Part shown: positions 27,383-29,868 of the stretch, in pieces
Layout: every line of letters begins with the position of its first letter
Position numbering within the stretch: the stretch's first letter is position 1
Assembly: GCA_030613505.1 (NCBI GenBank)
Contig: JAUWLW010000007.1
Location: 1 to 64,000 of the forward strand
DNA: 64,000 bases
Direction: 5' to 3'
Source of the DNA: Candidatus Zixiibacteriota bacterium
GTDB lineage: Bacteria; RBG-13-66-14; B26-G2; WVWN01
Notes under the pieces: model-generated
Databases searched by the model: none
What the model was told of the DNA's origin: nothing
The model's input: the letters and a program-made list of their open reading frames with translations, nothing else
Program-made: the position numbers and the translations under genes

Positions 27383-27769
27383 ATGGACCGCAAACTAGTA
27401 GGCCGATGTGGTAAATTTTGCGGCGAATGCCGGATTTATATTGCCGCTCACGCCGACGATCCCCAGACGGTCACCGAACTCGCCCGCGAAATGGGCGTCG
27501 AGCCCGAACGTATAAATTGCACTGGATGCCAGGGCCCCGCCGAAACTTGTTATAACGCCCAATGTAAGATCGCCGTCTGCCTCGACGAAAGGGGCTACCG
27601 TTATTGCGCGCAATGTGCCGAGATAAACGACTGTACCAAGTACGCCCAAAATAACGTTGAGTTCGACGGCCGTCCCAAAATCTACTCTAATCAATTAAAG
27701 GCCTGGGGCGAGGAACGCTGGTTGAGGTTCCACCTCGGCGACGCCGGCGAAGGTCCCGACGAGGATTAG
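27383..27769 (+). CDS. DUF3795-type cysteine-rich protein
   Basis: A 128-residue protein with the DUF3795 opening LVGRCGKFCGECRIY, followed by a second cysteine group (INCTGCQGPAETCY, CKIAVCL) and a third (YRYCAQCAEINDC). The nine or more cysteines imply metal or Fe-S binding; the family's function is unknown. It sits eight bases after the preceding gene and 18 bases before a shorter relative, in a block of three cysteine-rich genes that ends with a probable selenoprotein. Confidence 0.85.
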   Translation: MDRKLVGRCGKFCGECRIYIAAHADDPQTVTELAREMGVEPERINCTGCQGPAETCYNAQCKIAVCLDERGYRYCAQCAEINDCTKYAQNNVEFDGRPKIYSNQLKAWGEERWLRFHLGDAGEGPDED

Positions 27770-27787: not shown

Positions 27788-28048
27788 TTGGCCCGCAACG
27801 CGGATGGGAACCAGGGGCCCGGCCTGGTTGGACGTTGTGGCCTATTTTGCGGAAGCTGCGCTATTTACGCCGATTTGGATGAAAGGTACACGGGTATAAA
27901 AAGCCGCAACTTAACGCGGCGGCGGGAGCTCGGCGACGCGGCGTGGCTGGCTGAGCAACGCGCCGAACGCGCGTGCAGCCGGTGCGGTCGGCCCTTAATA
28001 TACGGCGACGACGAGTGCGCCTACTGCGGCGCGACGAGGACGGCGTAA
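27788..28048 (+). CDS. Short DUF3795-like protein with C-terminal zinc ribbon
   Basis: An 86-residue protein beginning at TTG 27788, with GAGGAG about ten bases upstream. Residues 13-25 (LVGRCGLFCGSCAIY) copy the DUF3795 opening of the upstream neighbour, but the rest of that domain is replaced by a small zinc ribbon CSRCGRPLIYGDDECAYCG. It therefore looks like a fused derivative of a duplicated gene rather than a full DUF3795 protein. Two bases separate its stop from the next start. Confidence 0.7.
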   Translation: MARNADGNQGPGLVGRCGLFCGSCAIYADLDERYTGIKSRNLTRRRELGDAAWLAEQRAERACSRCGRPLIYGDDECAYCGATRTA

Positions 28049-28050
28049 GA

Positions 28051-28524
28051 ATGTCAAGGCCGGGACGGGAAATTGAAGACGTCGACGCGCTCGCCAAAGC
28101 CGCCGTTAACCTCTTCTGCGAAGGTTTCAATTGAGCGGAAGCCGTGGCGACCGCGGTGAGCGGTTTCTTCGGCGCCGGCGAAAGTTGTTTACCCCGTGTC
28201 GCCACCTGCTTCGGTGCTGGTCTGGGCCGGCGGGGTGAGATATGCGGCGCCTTGGCCGGAGCGTTAATTGCGGTCGGTTTACGGCACGGGAGGCGTGAGG
28301 GCGAAGGGGACGAGGCGAAAGAACGGTCCTACGAGCGCGCCGCGTACGTGGTCGGGGCCTTCCGCGAACGCTTCGGCACGATCCTGTGCCGCGAGTTGAT
28401 CGACCTGGATTTAAGCGAACCGGAAGGGCGGGAGACTTACCAGCGTAAAAATATCCGAGACAAGTACTGCGTCGATTACGTGACGGCCGCGGTAAAGGCG
28501 GCTTACGAGGCAATCGGCTCTTAA
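28051..28524 (+). CDS. C_GCAxxG_C_C family probable selenoprotein (TGA at codon 28 read as Sec)
   Basis: Read through an in-frame TGA (28132-28134), the frame from ATG 28051 encodes 157 residues of the C_GCAxxG_C_C redox family. The family has four invariant cysteines. Here three are present: Cys65 in the CGALAG motif, Cys113 and Cys140. The first is exactly the TGA codon, in the context Gly-Phe-Asn-[Sec]-Ala-Glu-Ala-Val, which is the normal surrounding of the first Cys. The downstream hairpin with a GG-initiated loop fits a bacterial SECIS. GAGGA lies ten bases before the ATG. Without recoding, only the part after the TGA (from GTG 28144) could be made, losing the N-terminal redox residue. 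Substrate unknown; a thiol-redox or transporter-linked role is typical of the family. Confidence 0.8.
28150..28164 (+). promoter_or_regulatory. Candidate bacterial SECIS hairpin
   Basis: The stem ACCGC (28150-28154) pairs with GCGGT (28160-28164) around loop GGTGA, whose first two bases are G as bacterial SECIS loops prefer. The loop starts 20 bases after the TGA, inside the 16-37 base range usual for SelB. An alternative 6-bp stem with a three-base loop also exists upstream. Confidence 0.6.
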
Positions 28525-28546
28525 CGGTCGCACTTGAGCGCAAATA

Positions 28547-28566
28547 GCCGCCGGGGGGCGGCTTTT
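28547..28566 (+). terminator. Intrinsic terminator after the selenoprotein gene
   Basis: GCCGCC (28547-28552), loop GGGG and GGCGGC (28557-28562) are followed by TTTT. It ends seven bases before the phosphorylase ATG and contradicts the longer TTG start at 28534 for that gene. Confidence 0.65.
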
Positions 28567-28572
28567 AAAATA

Positions 28573-29868
28573 ATGGTCGCCGCAAGCTTGTGGTTCACGG
28601 ATTTAATCGTTCGCAAACGCGACGGCAAGGCCGTCGCCGACGACGATTGGCGCCGTTTCGTAGAAGCGCTCGGAGCCGGCGAGCTCCCCGATTACCAGAT
28701 ATCAGCGCTTCTCATGGCCGTATACTTCCGGGGAATGACCGTCGAGGAAACGGCGGCGTTGACGGCGGCCATGGCCGCTTCGGGCGAACAATTAGTGCTC
28801 GACGAGGGACCGTACGTCGATAAACATTCGACAGGCGGCGTGGGCGATGCTGTAACGCTCGTTGCCGTGCCCTGGGCGGCGGCTTGCGGGGCACGGATAG
28901 CTAAGCTCTCGGGCCGTAGCTTGGGACATACGGGCGGCACCGTCGACAAACTGGAAGCCATCCCCGGTATAAACCTATCGCTCACCGCCGAGGAGCTAAA
29001 AGAGCAAGCGAACCGCGTTGGGTGCGCCGTCGCCGAAGCGCACGCCGTTGCGCCCGCGGATGAAATCATCTACGCGCTCCGGGACGCCACGGCTACGGTG
29101 GAGGCGTTACCCTTAATGGTCTCCAGCATATTGAGCAAAAAACTCGCCGGCGGAGCTCCCGCTTTCGTCTTCGACGTCAAAGCGGGTAGGGGAGCCTTCG
29201 CCAAAGAAGAGAATTACGCTCGCGAGCTCGGCGGTAGTTTGATCGCCGCGGCTAAAGCGTCCGGTCGGAAGGCCGTCGCCGTAATCACGTCCATGGACCA
29301 GCCGTTGGGGCGCACCGTGGGTAACGCGCTCGAGGTCGCGGAGGCGGTTGAGACGTTACAGGGCCGGGGCCCCGACGACTTGCTCGAGGTTTCGGCTGTG
29401 ATCGCCGCCGAGATGCTGACCGTGGCGGGCATCGCCGGCCCGGAAGAAGCGCGACGCCGCTTGGAAGCGACCCTTGAGAAAGGGGAGGCTTTCGCGAAGC
29501 TCGACGAGATGGCGCGCGCCCAGGGTGCCCCCGCCGAATGGTGGACTCGCCTTCCGGAAGCGGCGAAGACGGCTCCCGTGAAAGCCGAACGGGGAGGGTA
29601 CGTATCGGGTTTGGACGCCTTCGCCGTAGCCCGGGCGGCCAACACGCTTGGGGCGGGCCGGCAGGTAAAAGAGGACGTCGTTGACCCGGCGGTCGGCGTC
29701 GTCCTGCACAAGAAGGCAGGGGAACCGGTATCGGCCGGCGACGTGTTGATGACCCTTCGCTACAACGACGACGAGCGCTTGCGCCGGTCCCTCGAATTCG
29801 CGCGAGTCGCCTTCGACGTCGGCGAAAAGCCTACGCCGCGTCCGTTAATACTCGGGGTATTGCGATAG
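28573..29868 (+). CDS. Pyrimidine-nucleoside (thymidine) phosphorylase
   Basis: Cleaves thymidine, uridine or deoxyuridine with phosphate to the base and pentose 1-phosphate, the substrate of phosphopentomutase encoded at 6757-7962. The 431 residues carry the family signature KHSTGGVGD, then SGRSLGHTGGTVDKLEAIPG, DVKAGRGAF and SMDQPLGRTVGNALEV. The C-terminal lobe ends in a typical hammerhead subdomain (LHKKAGEPVSAGDVL). ATG 28573 is preferred because a terminator precedes it; TTG 28588 is also possible. Whether it is the deoA or pdp type is not decidable by eye. Confidence 0.94.
   Translation: MVAASLWFTDLIVRKRDGKAVADDDWRRFVEALGAGELPDYQISALLMAVYFRGMTVEETAALTAAMAASGEQLVLDEGPYVDKHSTGGVGDAVTLVAVPWAAACGARIAKLSGRSLGHTGGTVDKLEAIPGINLSLTAEELKEQANRVGCAVAEAHAVAPADEIIYALRDATATVEALPLMVSSILSKKLAGGAPAFVFDVKAGRGAFAKEENYARELGGSLIAAAKASGRKAVAVITSMDQPLGRTVGNALEVAEAVETLQGRGPDDLLEVSAVIAAEMLTVAGIAGPEEARRRLEATLEKGEAFAKLDEMARAQGAPAEWWTRLPEAAKTAPVKAERGGYVSGLDAFAVARAANTLGAGRQVKEDVVDPAVGVVLHKKAGEPVSAGDVLMTLRYNDDERLRRSLEFARVAFDVGEKPTPRPLILGVLR

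Follow-up and report, generated by a model that had tools for sequence, protein, structure and literature searches.

The locus described here raises the question of whether an open reading frame broken by one in-frame TGA encodes a selenoprotein, or whether that TGA marks a dead, a shorter or a differently decoded gene. The frame occupies positions 28051-28524 of the window (the whole 64,000-nucleotide stretch of DNA that was analysed), and a first-pass annotation had proposed, from the letters of the sequence, a probable selenoprotein of the C_GCAxxG_C_C family with a SECIS-like hairpin behind the TGA. On re-reading the sequence, the coordinates, the frame, the single TGA and the terminal TAA given by that annotation all proved exact: the sole interruption is the TGA at 28132-28134, and the frame closes with the TAA at 28522-28524. 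The features of the locus are summarized in Table 1.

Table 1. Features of the locus, in window coordinates
Feature	Position	Strand	Details
Upstream neighbour, DUF3795 Cys-rich protein	27383..27769	+	PF12675 E=2.2e-14; syntenic in the genus
Second DUF3795-like ORF	27788..28048	+	Apparently internally deleted; Zn-ribbon-like C-terminal end
Likely ribosome-binding site	28036-28040	+	GAGGA, 5' of ATG 28051
Predicted C_GCAxxG_C_C family selenoprotein CDS	28051..28524	+	157 aa with Sec28; ATG start, TAA stop
UGA codon, predicted Sec reading	28132..28134	+	First of four invariant Cys columns; from homologues and Sec machinery
GTG-started 126-aa fragment	28144..28524	+	Expected standard gene-caller output; without Sec28
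Putative bacterial SECIS hairpin	28149..28165	+	6 bp stem; loop GGTGA (28155-28159); -8.7 kcal/mol
Downstream neighbour, pyrimidine-nucleoside phosphorylase	28534..29868	+	TIGR02644 461 bits; syntenic in the genus

When the TGA was read as selenocysteine (Sec), the product matched PF09719 with 87.9 bits (cut-off 27, E=6.6e-25) and TIGR01909, which carries the NCBI name 'C-GCAxxG-C-C family (seleno)protein', with 60 bits (cut-off 47.4), exceeding both curated cut-offs as a single-domain member of the family. The invariant positions of the product are Sec28, Cys65 (in the motif ICGALAG), Cys113 and Cys140, and their assignment to the four invariant Cys of the family, already made in the first-pass annotation, was borne out by all 57 homologues that we read. 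The same annotation had expected standard gene callers to report only the part after the TGA, and a GTG-started ORF of the corresponding extent is indeed present (Table 1).

To place the TGA among the homologues, we used a PF09719 search of 386 genomes, which found members in 70; the sequences read came from 56 of these 70 genomes and numbered 57. Thirteen genes in 12 genomes carried an in-frame TGA. The four Cys columns were invariant, with Sec allowed, in 57/57 sequences, and every in-frame TGA fell in column 1, where the remaining 44 sequences had Cys codons, so that the Sec28 column held Cys or TGA and nothing else. The TGA occurred at the same codon in the congeners G001 (86% identity) and G002 (53% identity), in the order-mate G004 and the class-mate G005, and in seven unrelated genomes, namely G037 (two genes), G322, G184, G160, G068, G150 and G223, whereas the congener G003 had TGC at the Sec28 codon. 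Of 30 genomes with selA, 12 had Sec forms, against none of 25 without it (P = 2e-4, uncorrected for kinship), a count that leaves out G010 because its selA match was partial. On the phylogenetic tree, about eight Sec/Cys changes were needed and at least three were forced by well-supported branches, so that this single position has switched repeatedly between Sec and Cys. Two-domain tandem C_GCAxxG_C_C proteins were also observed, in G037:C44 (L029) and in G002:C1:561039-561941 (L028), and the tandem protein of G037 has its TGA at the first Cys of the N-terminal domain.

These comparisons bear on two readings in which the gene is not a selenoprotein gene. The TGA could be a nonsense mutation or a miscall in a dead or mis-assembled gene; the assembly is in 100 contigs, and one base change would yield a Cys codon. 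However, 11 further genomes share this TGA, in each case in the first-Cys column, and its presence in independent genomes makes a sequencing error very unlikely. The close relatives have neither other stops nor frameshifts, which the first-pass annotation had named as what would speak against a selenoprotein, but TGA or Cys at the exact codon, and the window gene itself has no further stop or frameshift. In addition, the region after the TGA evolves as coding sequence, since 51 of the 73 differences from G001 lie at third positions. The 26 codons before the TGA, which are partly a short N-terminal tail, show 4/5/8 differences from G001 at the three codon positions, and the third-position bias there is not strong. 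We consider a pseudogene or an error very improbable. The second possibility is that translation stops at the TGA and that GTG 28144 starts a truncated product lacking the first conserved Cys; the 126-aa ORF is present and still matches PF09719. Against this start, G002, G004 and G005 have no such GTG, the stretch before the TGA is conserved in the family (GFN and so on), as is the first Cys without exception, and Sec forms are confined to genomes with selA. A start at this GTG is likewise very improbable.

The first-pass annotation had made its reading depend on selA, selB, selD and tRNA-Sec, and all four are present in the source genome G000 (2.86 Mb, 93% complete, 100 contigs). Profile searches of this genome gave scores above the curated cut-offs for selA (403 bits), selB (319 bits) and selD (344 bits), and the tRNA-Sec with anticodon UCA scored 66.7 bits, above the gathering score, with ARAGORN in agreement. 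General reassignment or suppression of TGA (to a reading such as Trp, Gly or Cys), which occurs in some bacterial lineages, can be dismissed as extremely improbable here, since TGA is the ordinary stop of 10 of the 31 long ORFs in the 64-kb window, the genome encodes a Sec system of its own, and its in-frame TGAs fall on Cys positions in families already known to include selenoproteins.

The selD gene (G000:C23:20762-21685, L054, outside the window) appears itself to encode a selenoprotein, with one in-frame TGA near the N-terminus and a SECIS-like hairpin behind it, as it does in the relatives of G000; having its own TGA and hairpin, it serves as an internal positive control. As a separate observation, the SelA model matched the SelA of the genome (G000:C95:11982-13136, L044, outside the window) only from about position 66-73. 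This N-terminally short match is common to G000 and all of its phylum relatives with a full match; the SelA frames begin at most about 60 residues upstream of the match (5-33 in most) and have no recognisable N-terminal domain. In Aquifex SelA, the N-terminal domain binds tRNA-Sec. In G005, 63 bp separate the end of the tRNA-Sec gene from the matched SelA region that follows.

Hairpins were scored with a script built on the published bacterial SECIS model rather than with bSECISearch itself. In this model, the loop has 3-9 nt with a G in its first two bases, the stem has at least 4 bp, the spacing is 16-37 nt and the MFE is at most -7.5 kcal/mol (PMC13188914). The window hairpin, whose 5-nt loop lies 20 nt after the UGA and has GG in the first two bases, agrees with the model on every point. 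The description in the first-pass annotation (ACCGC-GGTGA-GCGGT, a GG loop and 20-nt spacing) was exact, and the stem extends to 6 bp, but the weight of the hairpin as lone evidence is below what was implied there: by the same rule, 5.8% of all TGA triplets on both strands of the window have an equal or better hairpin, so that the hairpin by itself proves little. Against a null of synonymous codon shuffling, in which the protein and the codon usage are kept, the window hairpin alone gave P = 0.07-0.08. Among the homologues, a hairpin with a G in the first two loop bases lay 16-22 nt after the TGA in 13/13 TGA genes, three of which (G037b, G160 and G068) have hairpins weaker than -7.5, and the combined P value for the hairpins of the TGA genes was about 1e-6 with one gene per lineage. 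The sibling G003, which has Cys, has a degraded hairpin (-5.9), but a strong one has been retained in the Cys homologue of G010. The feature that exceeds chance expectation is the conservation of the TGA at one homologous column together with a hairpin after all 13 TGAs.

At the level of sequence, membership of the family, the Sec site, the interchange of Sec and Cys, the conserved position of the hairpin and the complete Sec machinery are established, and from these we infer Sec insertion itself. The machinery, the conserved TGA column and the hairpins strongly support the selenoprotein proposed at first, and we estimate a probability of about 95% that 28051-28524 is a genuine selenoprotein gene with Sec28 inserted at UGA 28132. 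In the mechanism that we propose, SelB would bind the hairpin just 3' of UGA 28132 and deliver Sec-tRNA(Sec), and the stop codon would be read as Sec28. The product would be a helical C_GCAxxG_C_C protein of 157 residues, with Sec28 standing in for the first of the four invariant cysteines, and selenium at residue 28 would provide a more nucleophilic, lower-potential ligand or redox residue.

The Olavius symbiont paper is said to have been probably the first to describe the C_GCAxxG_C_C family as selenoproteins. The statement of the first-pass annotation that family members occur as selenoproteins in some bacteria agrees with two reviews, one listing forms 1 and 2 of the family (PMC13188914) and the other giving it one entry (PMC9312934), both without a Sec motif for these forms. 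The selenoprotein status of the family is thus already known, and what is new is Sec at the same invariant Cys in many unrelated lineages. The window protein shares with the family (PF09719/TIGR01909) all four invariant Cys positions, one of them as Sec, and differs from the accounts in the reviews in having Sec assigned to the first Cys column and in its gene lying beside DUF3795. The best NCBIfam E-value was obtained with the HUGP/GUXX-star fusion selenoprotein NF045501 (residues 15-154), but the score of 67.3 bits is far under the cut-off of 325 and the model is longer, at 236 positions, which places the protein outside that family.

The AlphaFold model, built from a shallow alignment, is a helical domain with a pLDDT of 81. 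Structural realignment gave as top match the split-Soret cytochrome c 1H21 over 136 residues, with a Z of 12.2 (the next match had 6.5), in a range below about 13 that may be incidental for helical bundles. A sequence profile independently ranked 1H21 first (E=0.0011), and the first, second and fourth Cys were aligned; Foldseek against the PDB gave no significant match and single-sequence phmmer against the PDB nothing meaningful. Split-Soret cytochrome c is larger than the window protein and carries haems, whereas the window protein has no CXXCH and scored 19.9 against 400 bits with NF047622, placing it outside the cytochrome family. The title of 1H21 names 'A novel iron centre', and that work reportedly proposed a [2Fe-2S]-like centre. 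The second structural match was the C-terminal [4Fe-4S] domain of the L-cysteine desulfidase CyuA (9HE2; 122 residues), whose Z of 6.5 is too low to show kinship for a helical protein and whose cysteines (Cys287, 329 and 336; PMC12647591) are spaced differently; we set it aside as evidence for a [4Fe-4S] site.

In light of the split-Soret cytochrome c match, Sec28 may be part of a metal centre or a redox centre, and by analogy with this one solved relative we infer that Sec28, Cys65, Cys113 and Cys140 form such a centre, probably of iron-sulphur type. Calling the first Cys 'catalytic', as was done initially, is an overstatement, because the family has no known activity and the 1H21 match favours a metal or iron-sulphur centre at least equally. 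Within the selenoprotein reading, the strongest alternative is that Sec28 is a metal-free thiol-redox residue forming a selenylsulfide with another Cys, to which we give somewhat less than an even chance. It fits the name of the family ('putative redox-active protein'), the redox roles assumed for most bacterial selenoproteins (PMC9312934) and the fact that single-site Sec/Cys swaps are common. On the other hand, the protein has no CxxC/UxxC motif, and the four widely spaced invariant Cys and the 1H21 match suit a metal centre, without being decisive. On balance, the odds of a metal centre, as opposed to a site of thiol-redox chemistry alone, are roughly even. More specifically, but tentatively and with clearly less than an even chance, the family may hold a four-thiolate iron(-sulphur) centre whose first ligand is natively Sec in many lineages, with Sec and Cys swapped repeatedly, even within one genus.

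The surroundings of the gene form an array conserved within the genus, consisting of a DUF3795 gene, the C_GCAxxG_C_C gene and the pyrimidine-nucleoside phosphorylase gene. The second DUF3795-like ORF (27788-28048) has a full-length tandem counterpart in G004 and is absent at this place in G001. We considered the DUF3795 protein as a functional partner, but this is a weak lead only, because outside the genus the pairing was found solely in G004, where the two genes are a few kb apart.

The present reading corrects a gene truncated by gene callers and assigns Sec, in many lineages, to one of the four invariant Cys positions in a family of uncharacterised function. Two points merit follow-up, the conserved placement of Sec in the first column and the possibility of a Sec-ligated metal centre. 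G002 (Sec) and G003 (Cys), from one genus, offer a natural experiment on what selenium contributes to the possible metal centre. If the four-thiolate centre is real, the family would represent natural Sec-ligated Fe or Fe-S centres.
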